Notes: generated by a model from the letters alone, not told the origin. 23,850 bases of DNA from a virus (IMGVR_UViG_3300042945_003013:1-23850), one strand, 5' to 3'; shown: positions 9,254 to 16,243, counted from the stretch's first letter. Numbers and translations are program-made.

Positions 9254-9329
9254 AGCAGCGTAGAGGAGGCCAGTCGTCCTCGCCGGGCTCATAACCCGGA
9301 GATCGTCGGTGCGAATCCGACCGCTGCCA
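9254..9329 (+). tRNA. Initiator-type tRNA-Met (CAT anticodon)
   Basis: A complete cloverleaf can be folded. The acceptor stem 9254-9260/9322-9328 has six pairs plus a first-position A.C mismatch. The D stem is GAGG/CCTC with an 11-nt loop. The anticodon stem is CCGGG/CCCGG with loop CTCATAA (CAT at 9290-9292). The variable loop is 5 nt, and the T stem GTCGG/CCGAC has a 7-nt loop. Three initiator hallmarks are present: an unpaired 1.72 position, A11-T24 in the D stem, and three G-C pairs next to the anticodon loop. CCA is not encoded (ACT follows). The D loop lacks the usual GG at 18-19 and the T loop reads TGCGAAT, so two tertiary-contact positions are atypical. It starts 4 nt after a stop codon, so it is probably processed from the late transcript. 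Confidence 0.88.
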
Positions 9330-9396
9330 CTGAAACCCCGAGCCGCTGAAACACGCGGCCGGGTCGCCGGCGGGAGCCCCCATCCGCGCCGCTGCG

Positions 9397-11486: not shown

Positions 11487-11831
11487 TCAGACGGCGAACT
11501 CAACTACAACTTGGTTCACCCCGTTGAACGCCTGGAACTTGCCGTTCTTGATCCAGCAAGGAAAGCCAACTGGCAGCTTTTGGACAGCGTCCAGAGTGCC
11601 GCCGGCGGCCAAAATCTTCTTGGCTTGCTCGGCAAACGTTGCAAACTTGGCCAGGTACTTTGTGTCGGCCGCTGTGCCGCGTTCGCCGCGGGCCTTGCTG
11701 GCACAGATGACGCCCCAGTGCTGCTCTTCTCCATTCACCTCAACGCGAACAGTTCGCTTGAGGTTTGTCTTGCCGCAGCAACCGCAAGTGTCTTCGTCGC
11801 TCATCCCGATGATTTTGATTCCGGCGTTCAT
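11487..11831 (-). CDS. CxCC zinc-finger-like early protein (first gene of leftward operon)
   Basis: 114 residues from ATG 11831, with GGGAGAG 6 nt upstream. The N-terminus has a compact CGCCGK motif (residues 16-21) followed by a TNLKRTVRVEVNG strand, as seen in small phage metal-binding proteins. The middle, KARGERGTAADTKYLAKFATFAEQAKKI, is basic and helical, and the last third is aromatic (FPCWIKNGKFQAFNGVNQVVVEF). It is the first gene after a promoter-operator at 11886-11914, with a leader of about 50 nt. Its exact role is unknown. Confidence 0.75.
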   Translation of the reverse strand: MNAGIKIIGMSDEDTCGCCGKTNLKRTVRVEVNGEEQHWGVICASKARGERGTAADTKYLAKFATFAEQAKKILAAGGTLDAVQKLPVGFPCWIKNGKFQAFNGVNQVVVEFAV

Positions 11832-11885
11832 CGTTTCTCTCCCGGCTGGCGTCTCGCGGGTCTCACTCGCCCGCGTCATGCCCAC

Positions 11886-11914
11886 ACTGTATCCAATCGG
11901 ATACAGCCATGCAA
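11886..11914 (-). promoter_or_regulatory. Leftward early promoter with embedded palindromic operator
   Basis: On the minus strand: -35 TTGCAT (complement of 11909-11914), a 17-nt spacer, and -10 TACAGT (complement of 11886-11891), about 55 nt upstream of the first leftward gene. The spacer and -10 contain an 18-bp operator at 11888-11905, TGTATCCGATTGGATACA on the minus strand, with two 7-bp inverted arms around GATT. A repressor bound here would block RNA polymerase. The rightward promoter at 14106-14134 has the same layout. Confidence 0.75.
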
Positions 11915-11964
11915 GGGCATGAGCCAAAAAAATCCGTGGGGCCTGTTTTCCCCGCGGAAAGGGG

Positions 11965-12153
11965 CTACTTTTCGCCGCCCGGAGGGGCGGGCTTGAACCG
12001 GACAGCGTCCGCCCGGCGGATGAAGTTTTGGCCGTCGATGGCCACCGCCGGGAGGCGGCCGGCTGCGATCAGGCGATTGAGGTACGCGCGGGTCTTCCCG
12101 GCCAACTTGGCCGCGGTGCCGATTCGCACGTATTCGCTCGGGTCGATCTTCAT
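11965..12153 (-). CDS. Small MerR/excisionase-type helix-turn-helix protein
   Basis: 62 residues from ATG 12153. The sequence reads as a compact winged HTH of the excisionase/AlpA type: YVRIGTAAKLAGKTRAYLNRLIAAGRLPAVAIDGQNFIRRADAVRF, where helix-turn-helix is followed by a short wing. These proteins bind DNA and often direct excision or act as small regulators. It lies downstream of the integrase on the same strand, which fits Xis. There is no clear ribosome binding site before the ATG. Xis is a reasonable but unproven assignment. Confidence 0.72.
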   Translation of the reverse strand: MKIDPSEYVRIGTAAKLAGKTRAYLNRLIAAGRLPAVAIDGQNFIRRADAVRFKPAPPGGEK

Positions 12154-12184
12154 GGCCGCAAGTATTGCCGATCGGTGGCCGCGG

Positions 12185-12670
12185 TCAACCGTCGTCCAGC
12201 AGCTCGGCCTCGAGCACCTCCGCTGTGCCGTCATCCCGCAGCCGCAATCGAACGACGTACCACGTTCGGATCATCGCGCCGAAAGAGTTTTGAGCATCCA
12301 CGAACGACCGCACGACATACGTTCCGTCCCGCATCTTAGTGGCGTGGTTCCGAAGGTCAGCCACATCGAACATGCCAGGCCATTTTGCAGACCGCGGTGC
12401 CTTGAGCAGCGACTTGATATGCGACTGAGCATTGACGATTGCGAGGCTCCGATTGTCGGCGCTGGCGTCTACTTTCGATGGGGCGACAGGTCCATTCTGG
12501 ACCATGTAGACGCATCCACCGACAAACAACAGGAACGCGAGACAGCCCGCAGCGGCCGACGGATCGGATTTCTTTTTCGGCTGCGGCGTGGGCCGCCGTC
12601 GTGCCTGTCCGGCGTTGATCCGGATCGCCCCTTTGTCATCTTCGTCATCGAGAAAACTGAAGTCTGGCAT
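12185..12670 (-). CDS. Membrane-anchored protein with LKAPRSAKWP motif
   Basis: 161 residues from ATG 12670, with GGAGGG 6 nt upstream. The N-terminus is cytoplasmic and acidic then basic (RRRPTPQPKKK); residues 39-57 form one membrane span (AAAGCLAFLLFVGGCVYMV). The exported part carries SLLKAPRSAKWP at 87-98, a motif of the LKsPsSAkFP type known from many small bacterial membrane-anchored proteins of unknown function, followed by beta-strand-like segments (TYVVRSFVDAQNSFGAMIRTWYVVRLRL). It lies between integrase and Xis-like genes, a common place for lysogenic conversion or exclusion genes. Function not established. Confidence 0.75.
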   Translation of the reverse strand: MPDFSFLDDEDDKGAIRINAGQARRRPTPQPKKKSDPSAAAGCLAFLLFVGGCVYMVQNGPVAPSKVDASADNRSLAIVNAQSHIKSLLKAPRSAKWPGMFDVADLRNHATKMRDGTYVVRSFVDAQNSFGAMIRTWYVVRLRLRDDGTAEVLEAELLDDG

Positions 12671-12708
12671 GGAACCCTCCGGTTCGGTGGTGGGATAGTA
12701 CCTTGCCG

Positions 12709-13584
12709 CTACCCCGCGTCCAATCGCGGGAGCATGTCCGCCGGCTTCGGGCCGCGATTCAGGTAGCGCGGGTCGATGTACCACTTTCGCGTCGTCGCCG
12801 CCTGGGCGTGCCCGGCAAAGGCCACGGCCGTAGCGTCGTTCGTCGCCTTCGCCATGTGGCTGATTGCCGACCGCCTCACCTGCTGAAAGGCCATCCGTTT
12901 CCCGGCGAGGCCGGCCCGCGACAGGATGCCCTTCACCTTGTCCCAGAGGTACGTCCTCGCCTGTTTCCACGCGAACACGCGGTCCTTGTTGACCTTCAGC
13001 AATCGCTCGATCATGTCGCAGGCGGTCGGCGAGAGCTCATAGACGCGGGCTCGCCGCCCGCCCTTGCGGATCTCTCCTGGCACCGTCAGGAACGGCCGCG
13101 TGTAGTGGTGCGGCTCGACGTCGAGCAACGCACCGATCCGCTCGGTGGTCTCAAAGCAGACAATAATCAGGGCCGGGAAGAACTCGGCCGCTGGCACCAG
13201 GCCAACGTACCCCGGCGTGCTGGCAGCGGCCTTGAACATCCGCCGCAGCTCGTCTTCCGACCATGACACCGGCACGCGATCCGGCAACGGGGACGGTTGG
13301 CATGAAGGCAACGATGGAATCATGCGTCGATCGTTCGCCAGCCTCGCCAGGGCCATGAGCTGCGACCGCTCCTTCTCGGCAGAGTACGGCGACACAGTCG
13401 ATTGTCGGTGATCCATGTACCGGGCGAGAGTAATCTCGTCGGCGATGTCCTCAAGCTGCGGCGTGCGGCCGAGGAACTTTCCGAAGGCCCGGATCGTGCA
13501 GCCGTAGAGGCGGAACGTGTTCTCCGACTTCCCGCGGAGTTTGAGGGGCTTGTAGTAGCCGTCGAAAAACTGTTGCAAAGTCAT
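12709..13584 (-). CDS. int: Tyrosine recombinase / phage integrase
   Basis: 291 residues from ATG 13584, chosen because GGAGG lies about 8 nt upstream; a GTG at 13599 would place that sequence inside the gene. The N-terminal SAM-like core-binding domain (about 1-100) precedes a catalytic domain. Visible active-site positions are Arg149 (TTERIGALLDV), Lys174, Arg237 (QQVRRSAISH), His259 (AGH) and Tyr269 (KWYIDP). The first His of the HxxR box is replaced by Gln234, a variation that may affect activity. The gene sits beside a tRNA-like sequence that may be attP. It would mediate site-specific integration of the phage genome. Confidence 0.9.
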   Translation of the reverse strand: MTLQQFFDGYYKPLKLRGKSENTFRLYGCTIRAFGKFLGRTPQLEDIADEITLARYMDHRQSTVSPYSAEKERSQLMALARLANDRRMIPSLPSCQPSPLPDRVPVSWSEDELRRMFKAAASTPGYVGLVPAAEFFPALIIVCFETTERIGALLDVEPHHYTRPFLTVPGEIRKGGRRARVYELSPTACDMIERLLKVNKDRVFAWKQARTYLWDKVKGILSRAGLAGKRMAFQQVRRSAISHMAKATNDATAVAFAGHAQAATTRKWYIDPRYLNRGPKPADMLPRLDAG

Positions 13585-13680
13585 GGCGTGTACCTCCACG
13601 TAAGGGATAGTTCACGCATCCGTGCCATGTCGGCCGGTCTGCTCCGCGGGCCGGTTATGCGGGTTATCGGGCCTTTTTTC

Positions 13681-13699
13681 CGAATCCTACCCCCGCCAC
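13681..13699. other. Possible attP core resembling a tRNA 3' end
   Basis: The sequence CGAATCCTACCCCCGCCAC reads like the 3' part of a tRNA gene: the end of a T loop (CGAAT), the 3' T-stem strand (CCTAC), a 7-nt 3' acceptor strand (CCCCGCC) and A73. The matching 5' tRNA halves are not nearby, so it is not a tRNA gene. Phage integrases often use such tRNA 3' ends as attachment cores, and this one is about 100 bp upstream of the integrase start. The call rests on resemblance only. Confidence 0.45.
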
Positions 13700-13706
13700 T
13701 CAGGCT

Positions 13707-13739
13707 GCCGCGGTGGTCCTTTCGGAAGGACGCCGCGGC
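13707..13739. repeat. Imperfect hairpin in control region
   Basis: GCCGCGG (13707-13713) pairs with CCGCGGC (13733-13739), and inside it GTCCTT (13716-13721) pairs with AAGGAC (13726-13731) around a TCGG loop; a small TG/G bulge separates the two stems. The hairpin lies between integrase and repressor genes. No T tract follows, so a regulatory or protein-binding role is as likely as termination. Confidence 0.55.
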
Positions 13740-13755
13740 GGCTTCTTATCGACCA

Positions 13756-13780
13756 TTGCTTCGCGTCGGAGCCGAAGCAA
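13756..13780. repeat. Inverted repeat upstream of the repressor gene
   Basis: TTGCTTCG (13756-13763) and CGAAGCAA (13773-13780) are perfect 8-bp arms around a 9-nt spacer, ending 25 nt before the repressor start. The symmetry and position suggest a binding site for autoregulation or for the integrase/Xis proteins. It does not match the TGTA-N10-TACA operators at the two early promoters. Confidence 0.5.
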
Positions 13781-13805
13781 GTCTTAGCAGGGAGGCCGCG
13801 GAATC

Positions 13806-14063
13806 ATGGCTACCGGAAGCAAAGGACAGGTTGGCGGCAGGCCGCGTGAGTGGGAACTTTGCGAGCTTGGCCAACGCATCGAGCGTCGACTGGAGAAACT
13901 CCGCATGTCCGTAGACGAACTTGCGGAAGTGACAGGCGTCCACCGGCAGACTATCTACGACATGATGTCCGGCGAGACCAAGGAACCTCGCAACTCGACG
14001 CTTCGCAGTGTCGCCTCGGGGCTTGGGACAACTCGCGAAGAACTGGCCGGCGACCTCTTCTAG
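13806..14063 (+). CDS. Xre/Cro-CI-type helix-turn-helix repressor
   Basis: 85 residues from ATG 13806, with GGGAGG at 13790-13795. Residues 18-80 form a five-helix Xre-type DNA-binding domain: LCELGQRIERRLEKLRMS, then VDELAEVTGVHRQTIYDMMSG (the HTH) and TLRSVASGLGTTREELAGDLF. There is no C-terminal peptidase or oligomerisation domain, so unlike lambda CI it cannot self-cleave; it must be controlled another way. It lies between the integrase and the rightward early promoter and is the best candidate to bind the 18-bp operators at both early promoters. Confidence 0.85.
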   Translation: MATGSKGQVGGRPREWELCELGQRIERRLEKLRMSVDELAEVTGVHRQTIYDMMSGETKEPRNSTLRSVASGLGTTREELAGDLF

Positions 14064-14105
14064 CCCCTGCAAAACAGCAGTTGTACGGCGTCCCCGATTT
14101 CGCTG

Positions 14106-14134
14106 TTGACACGTTGTAGGGGATTCCCTACAAC
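14106..14134 (+). promoter_or_regulatory. Rightward early promoter with embedded palindromic operator
   Basis: TTGACA at 14106-14111 and TACAAC at 14129-14134 with a 17-nt spacer form a good sigma-70 promoter in the 175-nt gap before the right operon. The spacer and -10 hold a perfect inverted repeat, arms GTTGTAGGG / CCCTACAAC around GATT (14113-14134). Its inner 18 bp (14115-14132) read TGTAGGGGATTCCCTACA. The leftward promoter has the same TGTA-N3-GATT-N3-TACA design starting 3 nt after its -35. Confidence 0.8.
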
Positions 14135-14457: not shown

Positions 14458-14891
14458 TCGACGCCGCCATCGCGGCGTGTGCAGACACGCTCGGCAGGCT
14501 TCACCGGTGCAAGGGATGCCGCGAGGTGCTGCCGCTCGCGGAGTCGATGCGGATGCCGATCGAGCGACGGCTCGACCTGGGCGACAACCTCGCGGCCTAT
14601 GACGTGATCGTCGAGGGACGCGACCGGCTCACCGCGATCCTGCCGGAGTTGGGTGTCGTGCTGGTCGACGACCCGGCTGCAATCGACAGGCTTCGCGAGC
14701 TCGAGCGGCAGAAGCCCCGCTACGGGGCAGAGCCCATCATCGCCGGCGGCAGGCAGGCCGGCGAGCAAGTCAACCAGGAGACCGCGGGCTCGGAAGCCAG
14801 CGGGAAGGAGTGCCGGAGGATCGGCACATGCAAAGGAGCGTGCCCGCGAGCCACGGGTGGCCAGCGGGGAGGGAGGAACGAGGCGTGCTGA
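14379..14891 (+). CDS. Unknown early protein with CxxC motif (start uncertain)
   Basis: The frame is clearly coding from about 14460 (high third-position GC). The start is uncertain: GTG 14379 overlaps the upstream gene by 79 nt, a CTG at 14454 overlaps its stop, and GTG 14526 lies inside the coding part. None has a good ribosome binding site. The product contains LHRCKGCREVLPLAE, where CKGC is a possible metal site, then an alpha/beta stretch (AAYDVIVEGRDRLTAILPELGVVLVDDPAAIDRLRELERQ), and ends in a Gly/Arg/Cys-rich tail. No family recognised. It overlaps the CsrA-like gene by 7 nt. Confidence 0.6.
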   Translation: MADGPLSSAVGPLPAGASRDASRLRLIDAAIAACADTLGRLHRCKGCREVLPLAESMRMPIERRLDLGDNLAAYDVIVEGRDRLTAILPELGVVLVDDPAAIDRLRELERQKPRYGAEPIIAGGRQAGEQVNQETAGSEASGKECRRIGTCKGACPRATGGQRGGRNEAC

Positions 14892-15115
14892 TTCTGAGCA
14901 GGAAGATCGACGAGGGCGTGACTGTGACCGGCCCCGACGGGCGTGAGTGGCACGTGATGGTCTGCGGAATCCGCAATGCGTGCGGGGAGCATCCATCCGT
15001 GAAGCTCGGGTTCACCGCGGACAGGGACATCCACGTGCGTCGGGACGAACTGAAGACGCTGCACGTCACCACGGAGGGAGGGGCCAATGATGCCGACGTC
15101 GATTCGGACGTTTGA
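14885..15115 (+). CDS. csrA: CsrA-like RNA-binding translational regulator
   Basis: 76 residues from GTG 14885, with GGGAGG at 14871-14876. The N-terminus (M-LILSRKIDEGVTV, start codon read as M) matches the first strand of CsrA (MLILTRRVGE), and the later segment SVKLGFTADRDIHVRRDEL matches the CsrA pattern of a strand followed by V-x-R-x-E. The domain is somewhat long because of an inserted loop around GPDGREWHVM and NACGEHP. CsrA dimers bind GGA motifs in mRNA leaders and control translation and stability. A phage copy could regulate its own early mRNAs or host mRNAs. Confidence 0.85.
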   Translation: MLILSRKIDEGVTVTGPDGREWHVMVCGIRNACGEHPSVKLGFTADRDIHVRRDELKTLHVTTEGGANDADVDSDV

Positions 15116-15311
15116 CAGGCGGACCTCGGAGGGGCGGTTGAGCTACCGCTACGCCAAGGCCGTGCAGGTGGTGAGGGCCGCAGAGCAGCTCGTGCATGAG
15201 ATGCGGCACACGGGACAGAAGGGTGTCTACGAGATCAAGCCCGAGGTCGTGCTTCGGTTGTGCAGTGCAATCGACGACCACCGGGACCAGGGAGGTGACC
15301 AATGGGACTGA
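15087..15311 (+). CDS. Small helical early protein
   Basis: 74 residues from ATG 15087, with the strong GGAGGGAGG just upstream. It overlaps the CsrA-like gene by 29 nt and the ATPase gene by 10 nt. The sequence is basic at the start (SIRTFDRRTSEGRLSYRYAK) and helical afterwards (AVQVVRAAEQLVHEMRH). No family recognised. Placement directly before the recombination ATPase suggests a partner or accessory protein. Confidence 0.68.
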   Translation: MMPTSIRTFDRRTSEGRLSYRYAKAVQVVRAAEQLVHEMRHTGQKGVYEIKPEVVLRLCSAIDDHRDQGGDQWD

Positions 15312-16243
15312 AGATCGTTCGTGGGAAGCAGCGTCCGCCGCTGCGGGTCGTGGTGTACGGGGTCGAGGGCATCGGGAAGACGACGCTCGTGTCGCAGTTC
15401 CCAAAGCCGATCATCCTCGACACCGAGGATGGATCGTCGCACCTGGATGTTGACCGCGTGCCGTGCCGCACGATGGCCGACCTCCAGGGGGCCATGCACT
15501 CGCTCGTCCGGGATCCCGAGGGCTACCAGACGGTCGTGGTCGACTCGGCTGACTGGGCCGAACGGATGGCCCAGGAGCAGTTGCTGGGCGACGAGAAGAA
15601 GGACTCGATCGAGCAGTTCGGGTTCGGAAAGGGCTACGTGATGCTGGCCGAAAGGCTGTCGCGGATCCTCGACCTCGCCGACCAGCTGCTCGCCCGCGGC
15701 CTGAACGTGGTCTGGGTGGCTCACGCCAAGGTGGTGCGTGTGAGCCCGCCAGACCAGACCGACGGCTTCGATCGGTACGAACTGAAGATGCACAAGCAAG
15801 TCGCGCCGCTGTTCAAGGAGTGGTGTGACCTGCTGCTGTTCTTGAACTACCGCACGATCGTCACCGAGGGCGACGACGGCCGCATGAAGGGCCGCGGCGG
15901 CAAGGAGCGGATCATGTACGCCCAGAGGTCGGCGGCATGGGACGCGAAGAACCGGTTCGGCCTGCCGGAGTCGATGCCGATGTCGATCGACACGCTGCGG
16001 CCGCTGTTCACGGGCACGGCCCCGGCGGCCCAGGCCACGGCCGAACCGCCCCTGCACGAGCGGATGGCGGCGTTCATCTCCGACGCGAAGACCGTGAGGG
16101 TGCTCGGCACCGTGGGCGACAAGATCGACGCCTACGAATCCGACGGCCAGCTGACGGCCGACCAGGCCGACGCCCTGCGGGCGGCCATCGCGGCCCGGCA
16201 CGACGCGATCGAGCCGAAGGAGGTGGCCGATGGCGTGGCATGA
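15302..16243 (+). CDS. RecA-like P-loop ATPase, phage recombination protein (Sak4-type)
   Basis: 313 residues from ATG 15302. Walker A is G20-VEGIGKTT28 and a hydrophobic Walker B, TVVVDS, follows at 77-82. Further conserved segments include VWVAHAKVVR near 142-151 and a DLLLFLNYR strand near 176-184. This is the pattern of the AAA/RecA-fold ATPases used by phages for single-strand annealing or recombination, normally beside an SSB. Here the SSB-like gene follows one gene later. The C-terminal 60 residues are an acidic tail region that could bind partners. The Sak4 name is by family resemblance. Confidence 0.82.
   Translation: MGLKIVRGKQRPPLRVVVYGVEGIGKTTLVSQFPKPIILDTEDGSSHLDVDRVPCRTMADLQGAMHSLVRDPEGYQTVVVDSADWAERMAQEQLLGDEKKDSIEQFGFGKGYVMLAERLSRILDLADQLLARGLNVVWVAHAKVVRVSPPDQTDGFDRYELKMHKQVAPLFKEWCDLLLFLNYRTIVTEGDDGRMKGRGGKERIMYAQRSAAWDAKNRFGLPESMPMSIDTLRPLFTGTAPAAQATAEPPLHERMAAFISDAKTVRVLGTVGDKIDAYESDGQLTADQADALRAAIAARHDAIEPKEVADGVA

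Follow-up and report, generated by a model that had tools for sequence, protein, structure and literature searches.

Two early promoters of a virus contig, similar in operator outline, are probably controlled by two different repressors

In the 23,850-base IMG/VR virus contig IMGVR_UViG_3300042945_003013 of an uncultured temperate phage, analysed here over its whole length and called the window, two early promoters are probably controlled separately: HTH17, a small winged-helix protein, is predicted to repress the left promoter, which precedes an accessory-gene slot, and Xre, a Cro/C1-type protein, is predicted to repress the right operon. A first-pass annotation had proposed an OL/OR-type switch with Xre acting at both operators; this is contradicted by co-inheritance and by the comparison of natural swaps, according to which each of the two sites very probably has a protein of its own as reader. 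Its alternative of two related specificities was right as to their number; the proteins come from different families (MerR/Xis-like winged helix and Xre/Cro HTH). The observations comprise the sites and their geometry, co-inheritance, a correlation between half-site and recognition helix, and natural swaps, all of them read from sequence.

On the minus strand, Int is followed by a 161-aa protein, HTH17, the left promoter, L2 and further small genes; on the plus strand, Xre is followed by the right promoter, R1, a CsrA-like protein and a Sak4-like ATPase. Features are listed in Table 1.

Table 1. Features of the window in order of position.
Feature	Position	Strand	Basis or remark
L2, first gene of the slot that the left promoter precedes; 114 aa with two CxxC-like pairs	11487..11831	-	PHROG 1643 (unknown function), weak
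5' leader hairpin CGCGGG-CGAGTGAGA-CCCGCG, directly downstream of the left -10	11855..11875	-	stem sequence varies; hairpin kept in many relatives
Left promoter: -35 TTGCAT (11914-11909), GGC, 17-nt spacer, -10 TACAGT (11891-11886)	11886..11914	-	sequence; layout as in 34 unique strong HTH17-family sites
Left operator, halves TGTATCCGA and TTGGATACA, i.e. TGTATCCGATTGGATACA (11905-11888)	11888..11905	-	assigned to HTH17 by comparison
Likely intrinsic terminator past HTH17 and ahead of the left promoter, a stem followed by TTTTTTT	11926..11958	-	inverted repeat scan
HTH17, 62-aa MerR/excisionase-like winged-helix protein, predicted left-promoter repressor	11965..12153	-	HTH_17 family matches, AlphaFold2, Foldseek
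161-aa protein, function unknown, between Int and HTH17	12185..12670	-	PHROG 13160, E 2.3e-14
Tyrosine integrase (Int)	12709..13599	-	family assignment; swapped along with Xre in recombinants
Xre, 85-aa Cro/C1-type HTH, predicted right-promoter repressor	13806..14063	+	HTH_3 E 2e-9; PHROG transcriptional repressors
Possible extra half-site GTTGTACGG, same orientation, 33 bp upstream of the right operator	14080..14088	+	sequence
Right promoter: -35 TTGACA (14106-14111), CGT, 17-nt spacer, -10 TACAAC (14129-14134)	14106..14134	+	sequence; alignment
Right operator, full 9-bp arms GTTGTAGGG-GATT-CCCTACAAC	14113..14134	+	longer than first described; assigned to Xre
Right operator core TGTAGGGGATTCCCTACA	14115-14132	+	sequence
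CsrA-like protein, rightward operon	14810-15115	+	weak PHROG match

Both promoters and their palindromes had been annotated correctly to the base, with 17-nt spacers, and the sequence confirms that the operators start 3 nt past the -35, overlap the -10 and have the frame TGTA...GATT...TACA in common. Their inner triplets are opposite (TCC left, GGG right). The pattern TGTA-N3-GATT-N3-TACA occurs exactly twice in the window and in none of 100 dinucleotide shuffles, and the left-type operator profile gave nothing else above shuffle level, so that the annotated lack of a third copy stands. Length by itself does not make palindromes with 9-bp arms and a short loop rare (8 in the GC-rich window, 3-4 in shuffles). 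Neither promoter was called by a strict sigma-70 scan: TTGCAT and TACAGT each match at 4/6 positions, and TACAAC is without the final T. Because palindromes of this size are no rarity and the strict scan was silent, the functional case had to rest on comparison, for which more than 80 related viral loci were used.

HTH17 relatives were found at 80 viral loci by a profile search with ten HTH17 sequences; the same search gave no match in bacterial genomes. Neither HTH17 nor TerL had a relative in genome contigs, and cultured phages gave a single HTH17 match (32%). HTH17 is the sole window protein common to all loci with a left-type operator that are not near-identical to the window (the L032 group, L004, L052, L056 and L065). 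It is the only window protein in the L032 group and L052, and is accompanied by L2 in L004; the operators still match. A left operator with at most slight changes is present in L056 and L067, whose Xre is different, and in the L032 group, L004 and L052/L086; a relative of the window Xre was not found in the L032 group and L004, and only a distant one in L052/L086, and all of these encode HTH17.

A strong site was defined as TTG or TGG, six further bases and an 18-bp palindrome with at least 7 of 9 pairs, together with TAnnnT at a 17-nt spacer. The 80 HTH17 loci contain 34 unique strong sites at the observed centre, against 0-2 at 14 other centres (shifts of 1-7 bases either way). As a control, 45 loci picked regardless of HTH17 yielded two unique sites only, one of them unrelated and the other an HTH17 operator from L032-group contigs that encode HTH17. 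At a looser threshold (6 of 9 pairs) a promoter-embedded palindrome, always centred on the same spacer base, was present in the fetched stretch for 42 of the 63 distinct HTH17 proteins. The other 21 had no such 17-nt-spacer site within the fetched stretch, some stretches being cut, and at least five of them have a 16-nt-spacer version. Some phages carry several sites (four downstream of HTH17 in L132), and each site lies directly ahead of a small gene.

A scan of viral contigs found the exact left 18-mer in 36 contigs. Where the 18-mer sits in the promoter layout (a -35-like hexamer whose last base is 3 nt ahead of the palindrome, and a -10 overlapping the palindrome's end), the contig is a GC-rich phage contig and in every case has an HTH17 relative (66-100%). 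About two thirds of the 36 contigs are unrelated and lower in GC, and have neither HTH17 nor the layout. For this reason the 18-mer was rejected as evidence by itself and is meaningful only in context. One unrelated contig (L061; GC 0.52, no HTH17) carries it twice, at 785-802 and 982-999, 197 bp apart. A host regulator (LexA-like) acting on the left site is unsupported, because the half-sites vary among phages along with each phage's own HTH17.

This covariation follows the recognition helix. Half-site GTATCC goes with helix RAY[ILV][NR]R, TATTGCC with R[FQA]W[ML] (TATTGTC for RQWML), ACTTGCC with RFWLRE/RYWMRQ and TATRGAC with RALAYR, the inner CGA being mostly kept. At half-site position -8 the commonest base is G in 7/8 RAY clusters and in 0/7 others (15 protein clusters; Fisher p = 0.0014, a value that overstates independence because the clusters are related by descent). 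As the helix classes are few clades, the correlation rests on few independent changes. On a RAY-class operator profile built with the window excluded, the left site reached 32.7 of 32.9. The score of the right site was 2.5 (rank 22 of 47,666), lower than the maxima of 20 shuffled windows (4.0-15.7).

The HTH_17 match of the window protein itself lies under the Pfam cut-off, and 19/28 family members match at E<=0.01. Its AlphaFold2 model (mean pLDDT 84.7) has helix-turn-helix and wing in the order of MerR/Xis proteins and stops after the wing helix, so that the 62 aa include no C-terminal dimerisation coiled coil and no effector domain. The best Foldseek matches, all weak by E-value, were the P2 DNA-binding protein 4lhf, RacA, BldC, the Xis of mycobacteriophage Pukovnik and SoxR. 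HTH17 has its own promoter (TTGACC-16-AATACT, 12188-12161, minus strand). An autoregulatory operator is full in the L073-L093 subgroup and degenerate in the window; a convincing one was not upheld there, since the core CCGATCGG in the window promoter reads CCAATCGG in close relatives.

The likely terminator upstream of the left promoter has a perfect stem in L068/L056; a stricter scan did not call it. Many HTH17-type transcripts (L069-L142) open with a GC-rich leader hairpin whose stem sequence changes and whose pairing is kept (CGCGGG/CCCGCG, GCGAG/CTCGC, GGCCG/CGGCC), with z below -1 in about half of 48 such leaders. Promoter, operator and leader are conserved in L003, L056, L067, L069, L070, L071 and others while the first gene changes completely. 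L2 is precisely replaced in L003, L056 and L067; between the window and L003, which are otherwise 92-98% identical in this part, the sole difference is the L2 gene at 11500-11821, a hypervariable gene slot. By eye, the slot proteins of L003 and L067 look distantly alike; none of eight slot proteins examined had an informative family match. Elsewhere, the Sak4-like gene (15302-16243) is 53% identical to that of L003 (7497-8438), with flanking genes mostly at 89-100%, a divergence that looks like another local exchange. The phage also carries a tRNA-Met (CAT) at 9254-9330 (plus strand), present as well in L003, L067 and L029.

Natural recombinants separate the two regulators. L056 matches the window in two blocks: 11827-12703, which holds the HTH17 module (96%), and the part from 14102 on (94%). 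It retains HTH17 with the left operator, and Int, Xre and the right operator are replaced. Its right promoter has a different spacer sequence, with TTGACA and the downstream leader kept. In L067, HTH17 is identical and the left operator has one base changed; Int, Xre and the right promoter/operator are different. L139/L140 and L141 have the same HTH17 as each other, with different Xre proteins and different right operators. L139 and L056, with Xre proteins 72% identical, have the half-site AGTTYTTAGGTG in common in their right operators. The Int-Xre intergenic regions of L056 (940-1195), L014 (3020-3300) and L015 (2000-2300) contain a tRNA-3'-end-like stretch, GGTTCGAGCCCTTCCGGGTGTA, which is likely an attachment site; ARAGORN found no whole tRNA in these regions.

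At the right promoter, TTGAC and the TA of the -10 are invariant in six aligned promoters; a terminator reading of the palindrome was rejected, as there is no T-run and TTGAC/TA is conserved in relatives. The first-pass annotation had suggested a search for the operator pattern in close relatives; there the left site was recovered, and the right site was absent outside one near-identical contig, where it occurs with an identical Xre. The window Xre has only one close relative, so that its predicted link to the right operator is drawn from this single co-occurrence and from swaps that involve distant Xre proteins; fewer comparisons bear on it than on the assignment of HTH17. Where a right operator is visible in other Xre relatives, its inverted arms mostly flank the -35, which makes the in-spacer palindrome of the window an unusual exception, and its likeness to the left operator is therefore more likely convergence than the mark of a shared reader. 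The common outline of the two sites would mostly reflect coincidence and promoter constraint at the -10 (TA), which is more likely than one protein reading both.

The arrangement suggests that HTH17 would bind the left palindrome as a symmetric pair inside the 17-nt spacer. Judging from the position of the site and the length of the spacer, the bound protein would cover the spacer and the -10 and block RNA polymerase, and this repression would shut off or limit the variable slot, that is L2 here and other genes in relatives. Xre would bind the right palindrome adjoining its gene and repress the rightward operon (R1, the CsrA-like protein, Sak4 and beyond); a protein repressing this operon is a probable lysogeny or immunity repressor, a role that is put forward from the predicted repression.

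If a single protein read both sites, it could be Xre, binding the two palindromes with differing affinities as in a lambda-like OL/OR system. The TGTA/GATT/TACA frame, the equal placement and spacing, and the position of the Xre gene between the sites favour this. The reading is nevertheless highly improbable: the left operator is unchanged beside an entirely different Xre, or where no relative of the window Xre was found, the inner triplets are opposite, and the right site is noise on the left-type profile. HTH17 as common regulator is very unlikely. The spacer centre of the right palindrome does coincide with that of HTH17-family operators, but RAY-class operators almost always have CC at half-site positions -4/-3, where the right site has GG, and L056 and L067 have lost the right site while keeping an HTH17 that is 96-100% identical.

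Separate control by HTH17 and Xre has also to be weighed against other functions of HTH17. MerR-style activation of the left promoter would agree with a MerR-type fold and a site within the spacer. Promoters activated in this way have spacers of 19-20 nt. The spacer here is dominantly 17 nt: among strong palindromes with TTG/TGG at -9, a fitting -10 gives a 17-nt spacer in most cases (15) and a 19-nt spacer less often (4). This optimal length argues for repression, and HTH17, unlike MerR, is without C-terminal coiled coil and effector site, so that activation is improbable. It is unlikely, too, that HTH17 is mainly a phage excisionase (recombination directionality factor, RDF) with promoter binding secondary or absent, even with int near HTH17 in the window, weak excisionase-family matches and a fold nearest the P2 protein, Xis and BldC. 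Apl-type RDFs and BldC use direct repeats, whereas HTH17 sites are inverted repeats set within promoters, of which a phage often has several, and HTH17 also occurs in loci without the window integrase nearby.

Similar divisions appear in the comparison with known systems. Aca1 and Aca2 are small HTH repressors beside a phage accessory gene, with an inverted repeat over the -35/-10 (PMC8434428); likewise, the HTH17-type inverted repeat overlaps the -35/-10 of the adjacent accessory-gene promoter. HTH17 differs from them in its MerR/Xis-like winged-helix fold and in lying upstream of the promoter behind a likely terminator, whereas Aca is co-transcribed downstream of its target; no slot gene here is known as an anti-CRISPR, the slot proteins having no informative family match. 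The MerR-like BldC of Streptomyces is a winged helix only, has no dimerisation coil and binds direct repeats head to tail (PMC5859096). HTH17 is like it in size (about 60-70 aa) and in the coil-less winged helix, and differs in that its sites are inverted repeats in the spacer. Apl (186), Cox (P2) and RdfS are HTH_17-type winged-helix proteins, some of which also repress promoters (PMC7498355, PMC11963761), and the direct repeats that Apl-type RDFs are reported to bind are spaced by about one helical turn (PMC7498355). HTH17 is also a small protein of HTH_17 type in the neighbourhood of int (the window protein being under the Pfam cut-off), but the sites found for it are inverted 18-bp palindromes. 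As a protein HTH17 is close to BldC and the RDFs, and in where its sites lie it is close to Aca; it belongs in full to neither. For lambda/434 CI-Cro, the likeness is confined to the right side, where Xre beside a palindromic early-promoter operator fits a classical repressor-operator pair; here the left and right operators go with different proteins instead of a single repressor, and Xre is co-directional with the operon under its presumed control.

More tentatively, and with rather less than even confidence, HTH17 may be the founding member of a family of repressors that consist of a winged helix only, have no coil, and recognise inverted repeats at a fixed position in the spacer by a readable helix-to-half-site code, each member controlling one or several promoters in front of exchangeable, possibly anti-defence, accessory genes in many uncultured phages. 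If this is true, the operator could serve to locate such slots and the genes in them. The two similar sites also amount to a natural experiment: phages exchange the repressor cassette together with its operator on one side and keep the other pair. The comparison further provides a recognition code, open to testing, for a small DNA-binding protein that occurs in many uncultured viral contigs, and, in promoter plus operator, a sequence handle for fast-exchanging accessory genes that are invisible to family searches.
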